Positions 2,942 through 40,449 of a stretch of DNA of 64,000 nucleotides are shown here, piece after piece. Source of the stretch: Anaerolineae bacterium (GTDB lineage Bacteria > Chloroflexota > Anaerolineae > 4572-78 > J111). The stretch spans positions 1-64,000 of the forward strand of contig JAFGNV010000049.1 of assembly GCA_016926805.1 (NCBI GenBank), written 5' to 3'. The first letter of the stretch is position 1; every line of letters starts with the position of its first letter. Both the position numbers and the translations under genes were made by a program. The notes beneath the pieces were generated by a model. It made no database searches and was not told the DNA's origin. It saw only the letters and a program-made list of their open reading frames with translations.

Positions 2942-3967
2942 CTAAAACTGCTCCAAAAACCGCAGGTCGTTGCCCCAGAAGTAGCGAATGTCCTCGATGC
3001 CGTGGCGGAGCATGGTGACCCGTTCCGGCCCCATACCAAAGGCGAAACCGCTATATTTGGTGGGGTCGTAGCCGCCGTTGCGCAGCACGTTGGGATGGAC
3101 CATGCCGCAGCCCAAAATCTCCAGCCAGCCGACATATTTACAGATGCGGCAGCCCTGGCCGTCGCACAAAAAACATTGCACGTCCATCTCTGCCGATGGT
3201 TCGGTGAAAGGAAAGTGGCTGGCGCGAAACCGCACCGGCCGTCCCTCACCGTAGAGCCGGTTGGTGAAGTTGATGAGCGTGCCCTTCAAATCACTAAAGC
3301 GAATGCCGGGACCCACGGCCAGCCCTTCCACCTGGTAGAATTGAATCTCCGAGCGGGCCGTAATCTGCTCGTGGCGATAACACATCCCGGGTAGAATGAC
3401 CCGGATCGATTCTGGGTAGCGTTCGCGCATCACCCGAATTTGGCCGGGCGAGGTGTGAGTTCTAAGGAGAACGTCGGGATTGGTGGTGTAGAAGGTGTCC
3501 TGCATCTCCCGGGCCGGGTGGTGCGGCGGGAAGTTGAGAAGCTGGAAGTTCATCTCGTCGGTTTCGACATCACGGCTGCGAAAAATTTGGAAGCCCATAT
3601 CGGCCCAAATCTGGTAGATGCGACGCAGGGTGTGGGTGCTGGGGTGCAATCGTCCTTGCGATACGGGTCGCCCCGGTAACGTCACGTCGAGGGCGTCTTT
3701 GGCCAGCGTTTGCTCCATCTCGGCAGCCTTTACCGTTTGGGTTTTTTGCTCGTAGGCAGCTTCCAGTTCTTGTCTTAGCTGGTTGGCCCGCTGGCCAAAG
3801 ACGGGGCGTTCCTCGCGGGGCAATTCGCCCACGCGCCGCAACATTTGGGTGAGTTCACCCTTGCGGCCAATGTATTGGCCATGCCACGCGTCAAGCGCGT
3901 CGCCTGTACCGAGTTGGGTCAATTCAGTCCGGGCGGTTTTGGCCAGGGTTTCGAGTTGGTTAAGCAT
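2942..3967 (-). CDS. pheS: Phenylalanyl-tRNA synthetase alpha subunit
   Basis: Class II aaRS motifs (HPAREMQDTFYT, GMGPERVTML); start taken at MLNQLETL with GAGGAGAAC upstream, rather than the longer ORF start at 4015. Confidence 0.96.
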   Translation of the reverse strand: MLNQLETLAKTARTELTQLGTGDALDAWHGQYIGRKGELTQMLRRVGELPREERPVFGQRANQLRQELEAAYEQKTQTVKAAEMEQTLAKDALDVTLPGRPVSQGRLHPSTHTLRRIYQIWADMGFQIFRSRDVETDEMNFQLLNFPPHHPAREMQDTFYTTNPDVLLRTHTSPGQIRVMRERYPESIRVILPGMCYRHEQITARSEIQFYQVEGLAVGPGIRFSDLKGTLINFTNRLYGEGRPVRFRASHFPFTEPSAEMDVQCFLCDGQGCRICKYVGWLEILGCGMVHPNVLRNGGYDPTKYSGFAFGMGPERVTMLRHGIEDIRYFWGNDLRFLEQF

Positions 3968-4049
3968 ATTGTTCTCCTCATTGGATGGTTTCCTGAGTTG
4001 GCGGAGCCATATCATAGTCTATCTTGCGTTGTGAGACAAGTTTCAGACA

Positions 4050-4084
4050 AATAAAAAGGGCGCAACCGGGAAGGGGTCGCGCCC
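4050..4084 (-). terminator. Attenuator terminator upstream of pheST
   Basis: Minus strand GGGCGCGACC-CCTTCCC-GGTTGCGCCC-TTTTTATTT; 10-bp stem with one G.U pair and a U tract; lies between the leader ORF and pheS. Confidence 0.88.
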
Positions 4085-4112
4085 TGGATGTGCTGAAACT
4101 GCCTATCCTGCC

Positions 4113-4283
4113 TTAACCTCCCACCAGGACACGCCACAACGCGCCGCTAAAAAAGAAAAAGAAGCTGGTAAAGGCAAAGGCAAACACAGCCAGCCAGGTA
4201 TTGCTGGCAGCATTATCTTCGGCTTTGGCGATGACTTCTACTTTTGGTTGATGTTTGAGCCATTGATAGAGTTGTTTTGACAT
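4113..4283 (-). CDS. Phe-rich leader peptide of pheST (56 aa from MSKQLYQW)
   Basis: GGAGAATATC-ATG start; contains VFAFAFTSFFFFFSGALWRVLVGG; promoter upstream, terminator then pheS downstream; matches the leader at 39163. Confidence 0.85.
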   Translation of the reverse strand: MSKQLYQWLKHQPKVEVIAKAEDNAASNTWLAVFAFAFTSFFFFFSGALWRVLVGG

Positions 4284-4306: not shown

Positions 4307-4335
4307 AATATAACATATTATGAGGGGCATGTCAA
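4307..4335 (-). promoter_or_regulatory. Sigma70-type promoter of the pheST leader
   Basis: TTGACA (4330-4335) - 17 bp - TATATT (4307-4312) on the minus strand. Confidence 0.8.
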
Positions 4336-4570: not shown

Positions 4571-4963
4571 ATGAGCAATCATCGACATCTTGATGAACAA
4601 ACCCTGGCTGAGGCCACGGCTGTACTCAAAGCCCTGGCCGACCCCAACCGCCTGCGGATTTTTGACCTGTTGATGCAGGGCGACTCGTGCAACTGCGAAC
4701 TCAACGAACAGCTAGGGCTGCCGCCCAACCTGCTGTCGCACCACCTGAACGTGTTGCGCAGGGCCGGGTTGATCAATAGTCGCCGTGATGTAGTGGATGG
4801 TCGCTGGATTTATTACGCTGTAGACCGCGATGGGGTCACCCGCTGGCAAAGTTGGTTTGGCCAATTTCTCGACCCGGCCCGGATTCAGGCGCGAGTTAAT
4901 CTTTGCGGGCCGGAAGGTCAACAGGCCAACATTATCGAGTCATCGCGCCTGGCGGTCGAATAG
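4571..4963 (+). CDS. ArsR/SmtB-family HTH transcriptional regulator
   Basis: ALADPNRLRIFDLLMQGDSCNCELNEQLGLPPNLLSHHLNVLRRAGLI winged HTH with a CxC metal/metalloid motif. Confidence 0.93.
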   Translation: MSNHRHLDEQTLAEATAVLKALADPNRLRIFDLLMQGDSCNCELNEQLGLPPNLLSHHLNVLRRAGLINSRRDVVDGRWIYYAVDRDGVTRWQSWFGQFLDPARIQARVNLCGPEGQQANIIESSRLAVE

Positions 4964-5051
4964 AAACAATGTGAGGAAAATACAATAGTCGCCGAAAATA
5001 AATTCGCCCCTAAAAATCAAAACTAACCTCTTCTCATTCAAGGAGAATCAC

Positions 5052-6455
5052 ATGAATATCGTTCAAGAAACTGCCGCCTCTTCCACGCCTGGAGCGGGCG
5101 CTCAACCTGCCGGGAGGATATTCAGTAAGTTGAGCGTCGGCCTGGTCCGTTGGAAAAGCGATTGGAAATGGTTAATCGTTCTTATTGGTGGATTTCTGGT
5201 ATTGTATTACCTTCCCTTGGGCGCCGAACGGTTTGACAACGCGGTGATGGAGGCGCTGTATCTGGCCCAAGATTACGCCAGGGAACACGTGTTATTATGC
5301 CTGGTGCCCGCCTTTTTTATTGCTGGCGGCATTGCCGTATTTATCAGCCAGGCCGCGGTGATGAAATACCTGGGAGCCAACGCGCCCAAAGTGCTGGCCT
5401 ATGGCGTGGCCTCGGTGTCGGGCACAATTTTGGCGGTCTGTTCCTGCACGGTGTTGCCCCTGTTTGCCGGTATCTACCGGATGGGGGCCGGGTTGGGACC
5501 GGCCATTGCGTTTCTTTATTCCGGCCCGGCTATTAATGTGCTGGCCATTGTGTTAACGGCCAGCGTATTGGGACCCAAATTGGGCCTTGCCCGCGCGGTG
5601 GGAGCCATCCTCTTCAGCATTGTCATCGGCGGTTTGATGCACCTGTTCTTTATGAAAGAAGAACAGGAGAAAAGCCGTGTGCAGGCTATGTTGCCCCAAC
5701 CGGAAGTGAAGCGGCCGCTCTGGCAAAACGTCCTTTTCTTTGCCTCGATGGTTGGTATTTTGGTGTTTGCCAATTGGGCCAAGCCTCAGACCTCCGACAC
5801 CCTATGGGCCGCCATTTACAATGCCAAGTGGTTGCTCGCCAGTGGTTTTGCCGTCGCCTTTGGCCTATTTTTGGTGTTGTGGTTTAACATTCGCTGGTGG
5901 GAAATGGTCAGCGTGGGCGGGCTGGTTTTATTGGCCGCCCTCATTCTGCCGCATACCCCCACTGTGCCTTTTGTGATGGGGGTGGTTGGCCTGGCCTGGC
6001 TCATCAACCGCGATGAGAGTGGTGACGGCGAATTGGGCGCCTGGTGGCAACAGACCTGGGGATTTGCCAAACAAATCCTGCCCCTTCTATTCTACGGCGT
6101 GCTCATTTCCGGTTTTTTGTTGGGACGCCCCGGCCACGAAGGTCTAATTCCCTCGGCGTGGGTGGCCTGGGCGGTGGGTGGTAACTCTCTGCTATCTAAT
6201 TTTCTCGCCTCATTCGTCGGTGCGTTTATGTACTTTGCCACTCTCACCGAAGTACCCATTTTGCAGGGATTAATCGGCAATGGCATGGGCCAGGGGCCAG
6301 CGTTGGCCCTCTTGCTGGCCGGTCCGGCTCTGAGCCTGCCCAACATGCTGGTCATCCGCAGCGTGCTGGGCACTAAAAAAACAGCAGTGTTCGTGGGCCT
6401 GGTGGTGGTTATGGCCACGATAACCGGTGTTGTTTACGGTACTTTCTTTGCCTAA
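5052..6455 (+). CDS. Permease of the YraQ/ArsP (DUF318) family
   Basis: Polytopic; AVCSCTVLPLFAGIYRMGAGLGPAIAFLYSGPAIN signature; downstream of arsR-like gene and upstream of a small thioredoxin. Confidence 0.88.
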   Translation: MNIVQETAASSTPGAGAQPAGRIFSKLSVGLVRWKSDWKWLIVLIGGFLVLYYLPLGAERFDNAVMEALYLAQDYAREHVLLCLVPAFFIAGGIAVFISQAAVMKYLGANAPKVLAYGVASVSGTILAVCSCTVLPLFAGIYRMGAGLGPAIAFLYSGPAINVLAIVLTASVLGPKLGLARAVGAILFSIVIGGLMHLFFMKEEQEKSRVQAMLPQPEVKRPLWQNVLFFASMVGILVFANWAKPQTSDTLWAAIYNAKWLLASGFAVAFGLFLVLWFNIRWWEMVSVGGLVLLAALILPHTPTVPFVMGVVGLAWLINRDESGDGELGAWWQQTWGFAKQILPLLFYGVLISGFLLGRPGHEGLIPSAWVAWAVGGNSLLSNFLASFVGAFMYFATLTEVPILQGLIGNGMGQGPALALLLAGPALSLPNMLVIRSVLGTKKTAVFVGLVVVMATITGVVYGTFFA

Positions 6456-6490
6456 ATTAATTTTCAATAAACGATAAGGAGAAACAAACA

Positions 6491-6727
6491 ATGACCAAAA
6501 AACTTCAAATTCTTGGTAGCGGCTGTTCTAATTGTCAAAAATTAGCCGCCCACGCCGAAGCGGCGGCTCAGGCGATGGGCCTGGAGTATGAACTGGAAAA
6601 AGTAACCGATGTCAACGAGATTACAAAATTTGGGGTGATGATGACTCCCGCCCTGGCCGTTGACGGTGAGGTAAAAGTTTCCGGCCGGATTCCCTCGGTT
6701 GACGAATTGAAAGGGATGCTGGCTTAA
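6491..6727 (+). CDS. Small thioredoxin-like redox-active disulfide protein
   Basis: KLQILGSGCSNCQKLAAHAEAAAQAMGLEYELEKVTD...MMTPALAVDGEVKVSGRIPS; CxxC and cis-Pro. Confidence 0.92.
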   Translation: MTKKLQILGSGCSNCQKLAAHAEAAAQAMGLEYELEKVTDVNEITKFGVMMTPALAVDGEVKVSGRIPSVDELKGMLA

Positions 6728-6747
6728 GAGCAATCATTTGTCTTATC

Positions 6748-6782
6748 TGTCTCGTTCCCAAACTCAGTTTGGAAACGAGACA
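6748..6782. repeat. Inverted repeat / possible operon terminator
   Basis: TGTCTCGTTCCCAAAC-TCA-GTTTGGAAACGAGACA; 16-bp arms, one mismatch. Confidence 0.65.
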
Positions 6783-6890
6783 AACGGCATCATTACCCGT
6801 AACAAATTTGCGAAATATTGGACTAAATAAAAGAACAGGAGGAGGCAGTTATGATATCTAAAAGTGAGACCATTGACCCAACTGTAACCT

Positions 6891-7112
6891 ATGGGTTGGG
6901 ATTTGCCTCATCTGCCAAAGGACCGTCCGGAGGCGCGGAATGGGCGGCAGGCCGCCACCCTGGACGGGGAAGCGCACTCCCTCAATCGCGACCGGCAGGC
7001 CGTAACCTATCACTACAATGTGTCCAACGATTTTTACGCTTTCTGGCTCGATCGGCGTATGGTCTACTCTTGCGCCTACTTTACCCGATCAGACGAAGTC
7101 CTGGACACATAA
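6891..7112 (+). pseudogene. Fragment of cyclopropane-fatty-acyl-phospholipid synthase
   Basis: RDRQAVTYHYNVSNDFYAFWLDRRMVYSCAYFTRSDEVLDT matches the conserved cfa N-terminal-middle region; in-frame stops on both sides and no SAM-methyltransferase domain. Confidence 0.75.
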
Positions 7113-7305
7113 AAAAGCTGAACAATCAGGAGTAACTATCTGCTTGAAACAAAACTACCAACACCGGCCAGACTCAAACACCGCCCTCGTTGACCTTGGC
7201 GGCTAAGGCTTACCCTGACGGCTAAGGCTTACCAAAACACCCCCAATGGAGCCGATGGCCCAGCCTGTGTTCTTTGTGAATTACTTGCTACTTGGAGAAT
7301 TGTTA

Positions 7306-9093
7306 ATGAATTTGTACTTTAAACTGATGCTCTTCACTCTGTTTCTTCTCATCCTGGCGACCTTATTTGGCCCGGCGGTGGCGATAGCCCGGCAAATGGA
7401 CCCGGAACTGGCGGCCACGGCAACCCCATCGCCCCGTCCCTGGCCTTCTGCCACCCTCGTCATCAAAACCTGCCTGGTATGTGAGGAGGAATCCTTCTTA
7501 CCTGCGGCAACACCGTCACCCACCTCAGCGGCGAAGCCGGGACTGGCTCCTTTACTGCCGGTTATCGCGCCTGATGAGACATCACCCGCGCCGGCCAATC
7601 AAATGGCGACGACATCTACAGCGCGTATCCTCTATTTTTATGCCACCGATTGTCCCCATTGCCACACGGTCGAGGCTGAGGTGCTGGACCCGCTCTCGGC
7701 CAAATACGGCCTGCAAGTGGAGATAAAAATGATTGAAATTAGCGCACCGGCCAACTACGAGCTGCTGATTCGGGCCGAAGAGATGTTTGGCATATCCTCA
7801 GACCGGCGGGGTATTCCCACGCTCATCATCGGCGACCAGGCGCTCATCGGCGAGGAGCCGATCCGGGCGCAACTGCCAGACCTAGTGGAGCAGGGCCTGG
7901 CCAAAGGCGGCGTGGATTGGCCGGCTTTGCCTGGCCTGGAAACCGTCGCCCTGGCCGACCCTTTGCCCCAGGTGAGTGAAGACGCCGAATTGTGTGCCTG
8001 GGGGCAGCAGGATAACTGTGATACCAACAAGCCGGTTTGGGCAGCCTATTTTTACCAGGTGGGCTGCCCGGAATGCAGCCTGGCCGAAATTGACCTCAAA
8101 CATGTTCGTAACAAGTATCCGCAGTTAGTGGTGGAAGAATTCAATATTTACGACCAGGCTGCCCTGGGGCAATGGCTGGCCGGGCGAGTCAACCGTACCG
8201 ATTTGAACACGCCGGCCATTTTTATCGGCGCTGATGCCCTGATTGGTAACCAGGAAATTACGCCCCAAAATCTGGAGCGCCTGGTAACAAAATACACGGC
8301 CGAGGGCGCGGAAAAGGTGTGGGACACTTTTGACCCAACCCAGGCCCAGCGCGGTTTGCTGAGACAATTCGAGTCGTTTGGCCCGCTGGCCGTGGTTGCC
8401 GCCGGGCTGATAGACGGGCTGAATCCATGCGCCTTTGCCACCCTGGTCTTTTTTGTGTCGTATCTGAGTTTGAGCGGCCGCAAAGGCCGCGAAGTGCTGG
8501 CAGTTGGTATCTCGTTTACGGTCGGCGTTTTTCTGGCTTATCTGATGATTGGGCTGGGCTTTTACAAAGTGCTCGATCTGCTGGGGGACTTATTGACCAC
8601 ACTACGCTGGTGGGTTTACGCACTCACGGCGCTGTTATGCGCCGGTTTGGCCGTGTTCAGCTTTTTGGATTTTCTCAAGGCGCGGCGCGGCAAGCTGGGT
8701 GATATGAGTCTGAATTTGCCCCATTCTCTGCGATTGCGAATTAATGCGGTTATTCGCCAGGGAAGGCACACCCGCGCTTACGTGGCCGGAGCCTTTGTCA
8801 CCGGTATCATTATCTCATTTCTCGAACTCGCCTGTACCGGCCAGATTTACCTGCCGACAATTGTGTTTGTCAGCAGCATCCCCGAGATGCGCATGCGGGC
8901 CATCGGCTATTTGGTTTTGTACAATTTGTTGTTTATTTTGCCGCTGGTGGTGGTGTTTGTGCTGGTTTATTATGGGACAACCTCAAAACAATTGTCCGGT
9001 TTCTTGGAGGAGCAAGCGGCGGTGGTCAAATTGGGCATGACCGTGCTCTTTACCACGCTGGCCGCGTGGCTGGTGATGGCTTTATTAATATAA
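7306..9093 (+). CDS. DsbD/CcdA-type membrane protein with two N-terminal thioredoxin-like domains
   Basis: YFYATDCPHCHTVEAEV and YFYQVGCPECSLAEIDL motifs, then GLIDGLNPCAFATLVFFVSYLS and LELACTGQIYLPTIVF typical of CcdA/DsbD; start chosen at MNLYFKL with GGAG upstream. Confidence 0.88.
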   Translation: MNLYFKLMLFTLFLLILATLFGPAVAIARQMDPELAATATPSPRPWPSATLVIKTCLVCEEESFLPAATPSPTSAAKPGLAPLLPVIAPDETSPAPANQMATTSTARILYFYATDCPHCHTVEAEVLDPLSAKYGLQVEIKMIEISAPANYELLIRAEEMFGISSDRRGIPTLIIGDQALIGEEPIRAQLPDLVEQGLAKGGVDWPALPGLETVALADPLPQVSEDAELCAWGQQDNCDTNKPVWAAYFYQVGCPECSLAEIDLKHVRNKYPQLVVEEFNIYDQAALGQWLAGRVNRTDLNTPAIFIGADALIGNQEITPQNLERLVTKYTAEGAEKVWDTFDPTQAQRGLLRQFESFGPLAVVAAGLIDGLNPCAFATLVFFVSYLSLSGRKGREVLAVGISFTVGVFLAYLMIGLGFYKVLDLLGDLLTTLRWWVYALTALLCAGLAVFSFLDFLKARRGKLGDMSLNLPHSLRLRINAVIRQGRHTRAYVAGAFVTGIIISFLELACTGQIYLPTIVFVSSIPEMRMRAIGYLVLYNLLFILPLVVVFVLVYYGTTSKQLSGFLEEQAAVVKLGMTVLFTTLAAWLVMALLI

Positions 9094-39106: not shown

Positions 39107-39135
39107 TTGACACTGCCTCTGTTCTGTGCTATGAT
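39107..39135 (+). promoter_or_regulatory. Sigma70-type promoter of the aro/tyr operon leader
   Basis: TTGACA (39107-39112) - 17 bp - TATGAT (39130-39135). Confidence 0.82.
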
Positions 39136-39162: not shown

Positions 39163-39348
39163 ATGCCCCATAACGTTCATCAACTTCAGAGAAACCAAAC
39201 CCACGGTCAGGTTATCGCTCAGGCCCATCCGGCTTTGAGCAATCTTTGGTTTTGGTTTGTCGCGCTCGCAGTTGTTTTTGCGGGTGCTTTTTATTTTTGG
39301 GGCTATTATTACTGGGCTTACCTTTGGCGCGTTCTGACCGGGGGCTGA
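39163..39348 (+). CDS. Phe/Tyr/Trp-rich leader peptide of the shikimate operon (61 aa)
   Basis: C-terminal NLWFWFVALAVVFAGAFYFWGYYYWAYLWRVLTGG contains 5 W, 5 F, 5 Y; followed by a terminator and the DAHP synthase gene. Confidence 0.86.
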   Translation: MPHNVHQLQRNQTHGQVIAQAHPALSNLWFWFVALAVVFAGAFYFWGYYYWAYLWRVLTGG

Positions 39349-39372
39349 TGTAGGTTTTCGGTGGATTTCACA

Positions 39373-39408
39373 GGGCGCGACCAAGAAAGGTTGCGCCCTT
39401 TTTATTTT
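39373..39408 (+). terminator. Attenuator terminator upstream of the DAHP synthase gene
   Basis: GGGCGCGACC-AAGAAA-GGTTGCGCCC-TTTTTATTTT; arms identical to those of the pheST attenuator. Confidence 0.9.
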
Positions 39409-39435: not shown

Positions 39436-40449
39436 ATGATTATCATCATGAAAATGAACACAGTTCAACAGAATATTGAGGCGGTTGTCAGCCGGGTTGA
39501 AAAAGCGGGCTTCCGGACTCACCTGTCGGTGGGTGAGGAACGAACCATTATCGGCGTGATTGGCGATGAGCGCAAGTTGGATCGCGGGGCTATCAGCCGG
39601 ATGGAGGGGGTTGATCGGGTTGTGCCGGTCTTGCGCCCTTTTAAACTGGCCAGCCGGGACTTTCAGCCGGAGGACTCAAAGATTTCGATCAATGGCCACG
39701 TGTTTGGTGACAAAAAGGTTATTGTAATGGCCGGCCCTTGCTCGGTGGAGAGCCTGGAGCAGATGCGAGAAACGGCAGTGGCAGTTAAAGAGGCCGGGGC
39801 GCATCTGTTGCGAGGCGGGGCCTTCAAACCGCGCACTTCACCGTACAGTTTCCAGGGCATGGGTGAAGAGGGACTAAAGATTTTAGCGCAAGTGCGTGAG
39901 GAAACCGGCCTGCACGTTATTACCGAAGTGATGGCCCCGGAACAGGTTGATCTGATCGCCCAATATGCCGACGTGCTGCAAATTGGCACCCGTAACATGC
40001 AAAATTACGCCTTGCTCAATGCGGTAGGGCAGAGCAACAAACCGGTTTTGCTAAAACGAGGGATGATGAGTACCATTGAAGAGTTGTTGATGAGCGCCGA
40101 ATACATCATGTCAAACGGCAATCACAAGGTGATTTTGTGCGAGCGAGGCATTCGCACTTTTGAGAAGTACACCCGCAATACCCTCGACATCAATGCTGTG
40201 CCCGTGTTGAAAGAATTAACCCATCTGCCCGTGGTGGTCGACCCCAGCCACGCTACCGGCAAGTGGACCCTGGTGAAAGCAGCCAGCAAGGCTGCCGTGG
40301 CTGCCGGAGCCGATGGCCTGATTATCGAGGTTCATCCCAATCCCGCCGAGGCTCTTAGCGACGGCGAACAATCGCTCAAACCGCACCGTTTTGTCGAGCT
40401 GATGAGCGAGGTCAGGCGGGTGGCTGAAGCCGTCGGCAGAACCATATAA
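39436..40449 (+). CDS. aroF: 3-deoxy-7-phosphoheptulonate (DAHP) synthase, type I-beta with N-terminal ferredoxin-like domain
   Basis: [73 protein letters not shown]. Confidence 0.96.

Follow-up and report, generated by a model that had tools for sequence, protein, structure and literature searches.

Predicted ribosome-mediated attenuators of unusual layout upstream of aro and pheST genes in an Anaerolineae order (Chloroflexota)

Introduction

Among the closest described counterparts of the leaders analysed here are the E. coli trp, pheA, pheST/pheM and his attenuators, which resemble them in a leader ORF with a codon run, in mutually exclusive antiterminator and terminator structures, and in the kinds of genes that follow. 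In this classical layout, a protector hairpin (1:2) is typical of trp-like attenuators and is taken here as not strictly defining, while pause hairpins synchronise ribosome and polymerase in trp-type leaders. The E. coli pyrBI leader (pyrL) senses UTP via polymerase speed. The hosts of leader-peptide attenuation named in a 2010 survey were Proteobacteria and Actinobacteria, with one Firmicutes case added (PMC2965389). No description of leader-peptide attenuation in Chloroflexota was found in the open-access papers searched, and priority is not certain.

Here we analyse a window of 64,000 nt (the whole stretch of DNA under study) from a 5.3-Mb assembly of Chloroflexota, class Anaerolineae. Two leaders in the window, one upstream of an aro operon and one upstream of pheST, are very probably ribosome-mediated transcription attenuators of unusual layout, as indicated by their leader ORFs, aromatic codons, terminators, and a pairing that excludes the terminator and is maintained through compensatory changes.

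Results

Two Leaders in the Window

On the aro side, a predicted promoter is followed by a 61-aa ORF, an intrinsic terminator, and aroF with the shikimate/tyrosine operon. The same order occurs on the minus strand on the pheST side, with a predicted promoter, an ORF containing five Phe codons, a terminator, and pheS. The aro operon reads aroF-tyrA-aroA-aroE-aroC-tyrS-aroK-NUDIX-aroB and extends to 48214 (Pfam; NUDIX gene named by eye), thus encoding prephenate dehydrogenase and TyrRS. The features are as follows, with T1 the ORF-internal hairpin, T2 the terminator downstream of the ORF, and strand 2 the antiterminator 5' strand.

39107–39135, plus strand: predicted sigma-70-like promoter of the aro leader, TTGACA-17-TATGAT with TG before the -10 (consensus scan, 11/12)
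39163–39348, plus strand: aro leader ORF, 61 aa, MPHNVHQLQRNQTHGQVIAQAHPALSNLWFWFVALAVVFAGAFYFWGYYYWAYLWRVLTGG; an aromatic-rich ORF lies at the same place in 13 aro-type leaders
39247–39258, plus strand: Trp-Phe-Trp-Phe codons, the first control codons, directly 5' of the ORF-internal hairpin; Trp/Phe/Tyr codons occur here in all 10 aroF leaders
39262–39298, plus strand: T1, terminator-like hairpin GCGCTCGCAG-TTGTTT-TTGCGGGTGC with a T5AT5 tract (fold energy, terminator scan, 13 homologs)
39289–39315, plus strand: main aromatic codon run F-Y-F-W-G-Y-Y-Y-W, whose opening codons also serve as the T1 U-tract
39325–39336, plus strand: predicted aro antiterminator 5' strand UGGCGCGUUCUG, codons W-R-V-L (TGG CGC GTT CTG) (duplex and re-pairing tests)
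39371–39383, plus strand: predicted aro antiterminator 3' strand CAGGGCGCG(A)CCA, A39380 bulged, overlapping the terminator 5' arm
39372–39407, plus strand: T2 of the aro leader, intrinsic terminator GGGCGCGACC...GGTTGCGCCC then TTTTTATTTT (terminator scan; conserved in homologs)
39436–40449, plus strand: aroF, DAHP synthase (Pfam PF00793, PF18152 and others)
4307–4335, minus strand: predicted sigma-70-like promoter of the pheST leader, TTGACA-17-TATATT
4113–4283, minus strand: pheST leader ORF, 56 aa, MSKQLYQWLKHQPKVEVIAKAEDNAASNTWLAVFAFAFTSFFFFFSGALWRVLVGG (ORF reading and homologs)
4149–4163, minus strand: pheST control run of five Phe codons
4124–4136, minus strand: predicted pheST antiterminator 5' strand UGGCGUGUCCUGG (TGGCGTGTCCTGG at 4136-4124; duplex -21.4 kcal/mol)
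4075–4087, minus strand: predicted pheST antiterminator 3' strand CCAGGGCGCG(A)CC, overlapping the terminator 5' arm
4049–4085, minus strand: T2 of the pheST leader, intrinsic terminator (pattern and terminator scans)
2942–3967, minus strand: pheS (Pfam PF01409, PF02912)
2832–181, minus strand: pheT, after pheS (named by eye)

An Rfam 15 scan of the 64-kb window, T-box and other curated leader models included, returned 0 matches at the gathering score. Elsewhere in the window, positions 4571-9093 hold an ArsR-like regulator, then a permease-like membrane protein and a thioredoxin/DsbD-like gene (ORF reading alone).

Complementarity between Leader End and Terminator Arm

In both window leaders, the leader-end codons UGG-CGY-GUY-CUG are complementary to the downstream terminator 5' arm. 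An earlier sequence-only reading had claimed that 9 bp pair without interruption in aro and 10 bp in pheST; both pairings were reproduced, and the coordinates given are correct. Its claim that antiterminator and terminator exclude each other also stands, as the antiterminator uses the terminator 5' arm as its 3' strand. The helix is longer than claimed, with the preceding UGG pairing with CCA past one bulged A; the aro duplex thus comprises 12 bp with one bulged A and a calculated energy of -18.6 kcal/mol. Two generalisations fared less well among homologs. The idea that G.U keeps codon differences paired fails as a general rule, since a Val codon GUG or GUA places a wobble-base mismatch within the helix in four homologs, and the spacings of exactly five codons (aromatic run to CGY) and three codons (CUG to stop) hold for the two window leaders and not for homologs. 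Over 21/21 leaders, the distance from the stop codon to the end of strand 2 ranges from -2 to +17 nt.

Judged from the window leaders alone, this pairing is only modestly improbable. Among dinucleotide-shuffled leader ends, 68/1000 for aro and 19/1000 for pheST equalled the real pairing, and synonymous recodings of WRVL did so in 216/2000 and 162/2000, respectively. The latter counts, together with the free Val wobble base and the hydrophobic, membrane-like look of the leader peptide, would suit an alternative in which the LWRVLxGG end is under peptide constraint (stalling, or a small functional membrane peptide) and complementarity simply follows from GC-rich codons. GGGCGCGACC was also considered as a repeated genomic element; it has 23 copies, yet only the two leader copies are terminators.

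Collection and Spread of Homologous Leaders

A terminator pattern search within the family gave nine leaders, with 0 matches for the reversed-pattern control. The covariance-model search that the sequence-only reading had proposed, carried out with models R1 and R2, enlarged the set from 9 to 21 leaders, across which own-arm pairing is kept. The 21 leaders come from two families of one order; 10 of them precede aroF, 8 pheS, and 3 chorismate mutase. The R2 search of the class found leaders in families f1 and f3 only, and R3, which models the hairpin within the ORF, matched solely the source genome among 399 genomes sampled from the phylum. Within these searches, the leader type is restricted to one Anaerolineae order.

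Several other matches were set aside. A search for WRVLxGG plus stop in 397 genomes of the class returned the source genome, two f1 genomes, and G316 (L034), the last without terminator and aromatic context. Weak R1 matches in f1 and f3 (L053, L055-L057, L071-L074, and L077-L094, among the matches listed) were judged to be unrelated terminators, and hairpin-1 pattern matches across GTDB (Elulimicrobium, Herpetosiphonaceae, Kaiserbacteria) came without leader context. Two of the R1 matches, L075 (G212:C162, minus strand) and L076:1148-1250, instead carry a different conserved leader, TTGTCGTAGTG.GTCTGCTGACTCCGG. This leader has a GAGCCGCAGAC...GTCTGCGGC terminator with a second GCCGCAG terminator directly after, and a long ORF farther downstream resembles an ABC transporter. 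Its end, GTCTGC..CTC, is able to pair with GAG..GCAGAC, and it may therefore be another leader switch.

The leader ORFs are 45-62 aa long, and all 21 are rich in Phe, Tyr and Trp, with an intrinsic terminator sitting between the ORF and the first gene (pattern, covariance-model and terminator scans). Tyr marks the aro leaders and Phe the pheST leaders, with 3.4 versus 0.4 Tyr codons per last 30 aa; Tyr codons in the aro leaders fit the genes of the aro operon, which encode prephenate dehydrogenase and TyrRS among others. Most f1 aro and pheST leader peptides share an N-terminal MSK.L..L..NQ..VKV (window 39163-39240 and 4283-4200). By sequence, the f1 leaders look paralogous, the pheST leader being an apparent duplicate of the aro leader re-tuned to Phe. 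The f3 leader precedes chorismate mutase genes (L105, L106, L107), which are AroH-type as assigned by eye, with aroF next in L106 and in genome G051. Upstream of pheS in G161, G222 and G313, and in families f2 and f3, no such leader was found. The position of the f3 leader and the leaderless pheS of the f2/f3 genomes examined suggest that the pheST copy was gained within f1. The homologous N-terminus of the f1 peptides is not explained by attenuation, and the leader is unusually long.

Pairing Is Kept While the Peptide Changes

Comparison of the homologs disclosed that leader peptides end in WRVLTGG, GRVLTGD, WRALMAGG, RIGAF, GSVLIGN, GGRAPAGD, ETCRALSKD, WRRTLAG, WARAD or RTRGARKTNLA, and that terminator arms likewise differ (GGGCGCGACC, GGGCGCAACC, GGGCGUAGUC, GGGGCGUAGCC, AAGGCGCGACAG, AGCGUCCC, GGGCGUUCC). 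The clearest single case is the G201 pheST leader, where leader codons and both terminator arms have changed; opposite its altered arm AAGGCGCGACAG, GCGCGACAG/CUGUCGCGC can form nine Watson-Crick pairs. The G262 aro leader has GGCGCGTTCTGACCGG intact though its frame is shifted (...WWRIGAF*), and in G212 pheST a Val to Ala change (GCT) makes the pairing better. G320 pheST ends in GGRAPAGD, and its CGCGC(A)CCUG is still complementary, with arm pairing CGCGAC/GUCGCG. Matched strands also accompany other arms in G190 (GCGUUCCG/CGGAACGC) and G051 (GCGUCCCGC/GCGGGGCGC).

To quantify this, the duplex energy of each leader end with its own arm was compared with that for every other arm. The own-arm sum for 21 leaders was -413.7 kcal/mol against a mean of -347.6 (sd 11.2), reached by 0/200,000 re-pairings; with one leader per genus and type, it was -285.7 against -240.6 (sd 9.4), again reached by 0/200,000. 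These permutation counts are not strict probabilities, as leaders within one family are related. A longest-helix count, which needs no energy parameters, gave 0/200,000 with Watson-Crick and G.U pairs and a weaker 8,051/200,000 with Watson-Crick pairs only. As a control, four other upstream 53-nt leader windows showed no such preference for the arms (z 0 to -0.8; 17 leaders). In the nascent RNA before the 3' arm, the predicted fold closes the antiterminator helix in 21/21 leaders. Across homologs, own-arm pairing is thus far beyond chance. Taken singly, leaders exceed their shuffles only to a modest degree; G161 aro, G262 pheST, G270 pheST and G297 pheST were not significant against shuffles, and the G161 strand pairs poorly with its own arm (rank 16/21). 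Column-wise covariation of the antiterminator in the 9-sequence aro alignment was weak (68/500 shuffles reach the score) because most f1 arms are identical.

The outcome that would have pointed to the peptide, namely WRVL kept and its complement lost, was looked for across homologs, and the opposite was found; this agrees with the sequence-only proposal that the conserved LWRVLxGG end is an RNA constraint. The comparison shows that evolution keeps the predicted RNA pairing of the leader, not the encoded peptide. The N-terminal part likewise argues against a peptide constraint, as differences between close leader pairs are mostly non-synonymous (63 versus 21 synonymous). With peptide ends differing while own-arm complementarity persists, we regard that alternative as highly improbable.

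A Terminator-Like Hairpin within the Aro Leader ORF

The "minimal two-hairpin" design ascribed to both leaders is not true of aro, where a second terminator-like hairpin, T1, lies within the leader ORF. Its stem-loop at 39262-39287 has a folding energy of -15.0 kcal/mol and was called by the terminator scan. A T1-type hairpin followed by TTTTTATTTT occurs inside the ORF in 13/13 aro-type leaders, with an invariant U-tract. In these 13 sequences, 97% of cells are paired and 6 cells have changed on both sides, and the covariation score was reached by 0/500 shuffles. Codons of the tract are TTT or TAT in 42/42 cases, against 86/104 for the remaining codons of these leaders (Fisher p 0.0014), an approximate figure since a second FYF run was counted instead in two chorismate mutase leaders. 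At convincing scores, T1 appears once per genome, before the aro operon; a clear, consistent T1 was not found in pheST leaders.

This conservation, which equals that of T2, raises the question of whether T1 is the main aro switch and T2 secondary. Coupling would then be of the pyrL kind, a close ribosome blocking the ORF-internal terminator, much as the intrinsic terminator in the translated pyrL leader is suppressed by a ribosome following close behind the polymerase (PMC5021804). The invariant U-tract and covariation fit this scheme. However, a lagging, starved ribosome would raise termination, which for a biosynthetic operon is the wrong sign unless it stalled on T1 itself; pheST leaders have no clear T1, and the coevolution of strand and arm would need a separate explanation. 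We therefore consider T1 unlikely to be the main switch.

Alternatively, T1 could be a pause hairpin rather than a terminator, keeping the polymerase in step with the ribosome; this would be compatible with T2 as the regulatory terminator. The tract TTTTTATTTTT contains a TTNTTT-type motif, and T-rich motifs of this type act as NusG pause signals when they lie below a hairpin (PMC12288461). The T1 stem, loop and U-tract also satisfy the terminator scan, and sequence cannot separate pause from terminator; a pausing role is a serious possibility, falling a little short of likely. Either way, a polymerase without a following ribosome probably terminates or pauses at T1.

Discussion

Proposed Mechanism

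In the attenuator reading that we favour, a ribosome supplied with plentiful charged aromatic tRNAs would reach the stop codon and cover the last codons (strand 2), T2 would fold, and transcription would end. A lack of charged Phe, Tyr or Trp tRNA would instead stall the ribosome on the upstream aromatic run; strand 2, left free, could then pair with the T2 5' arm ahead of 3' arm synthesis, allowing read-through into the aro operon or pheST. We infer the stalling, the footprint and the direction of switching. Given the general size of a ribosome footprint, on which the covering argument is based, stop codon placement would let a terminating ribosome cover strand 2 in 21/21 leaders. Several leaders, among them the window aro leader, have an aromatic codon so near strand 2 that a ribosome stalled on this codon would mask the strand.

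No 1:2 protector hairpin was found when upstream windows were compared with strand 2 (z +2.3 to -1.6, none significant toward pairing), and an untranslated leader would consequently read through. T1 would prevent this in aro-type leaders, substituting for the absent protector. A tandem attenuator is conceivable, although we hold it with some doubt, in which T1 replaces the protector stem and checks translation of the RNA, and T2, opposed by the last codons, responds to amino-acid supply; the U-tract of T1 would then consist of the control codons.

In this compact group of leaders, three RNA strands, the leader codons and the 5' and 3' arms of the terminator, change together, a clear case of codons apparently kept for RNA pairing rather than peptide. 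They also illustrate the likely duplication of an attenuator and its re-tuning from the shared aromatic pathway to pheST, and the putative ORF-internal terminator is a testable candidate for the replacement of the protector hairpin.

Comparison with Known Attenuators

Attenuators of actinobacterial trp, trpS and leuS (PMC1262725) are alike in a predicted leader peptide and antiterminator/terminator pair with conserved complementary triples; they involve other genes, sequences and phylum, and the parts of that account considered here do not mention an ORF-internal terminator. The Corynebacterium ilvB-II uORF motif (PMC10272879) similarly places a uORF rich in the pathway amino acids before a terminator and predicted antiterminator, and differs in its 15-17 aa length, its branched-chain amino acids, and its actinobacterial host. 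pyrL serves as a model for T1, whereas the leaders here have aromatic codons and a separate antiterminator. Compared with the classical E. coli attenuators, strand 2 consists of the last sense codons and no 1:2 protector is detectable, the leaders are 45-62 aa long, and the aro-type carries an extra hairpin inside its ORF. The Chloroflexota leaders thus share the main attenuator features tested, and differ by the lack of a detectable protector and by the ORF-internal hairpin.
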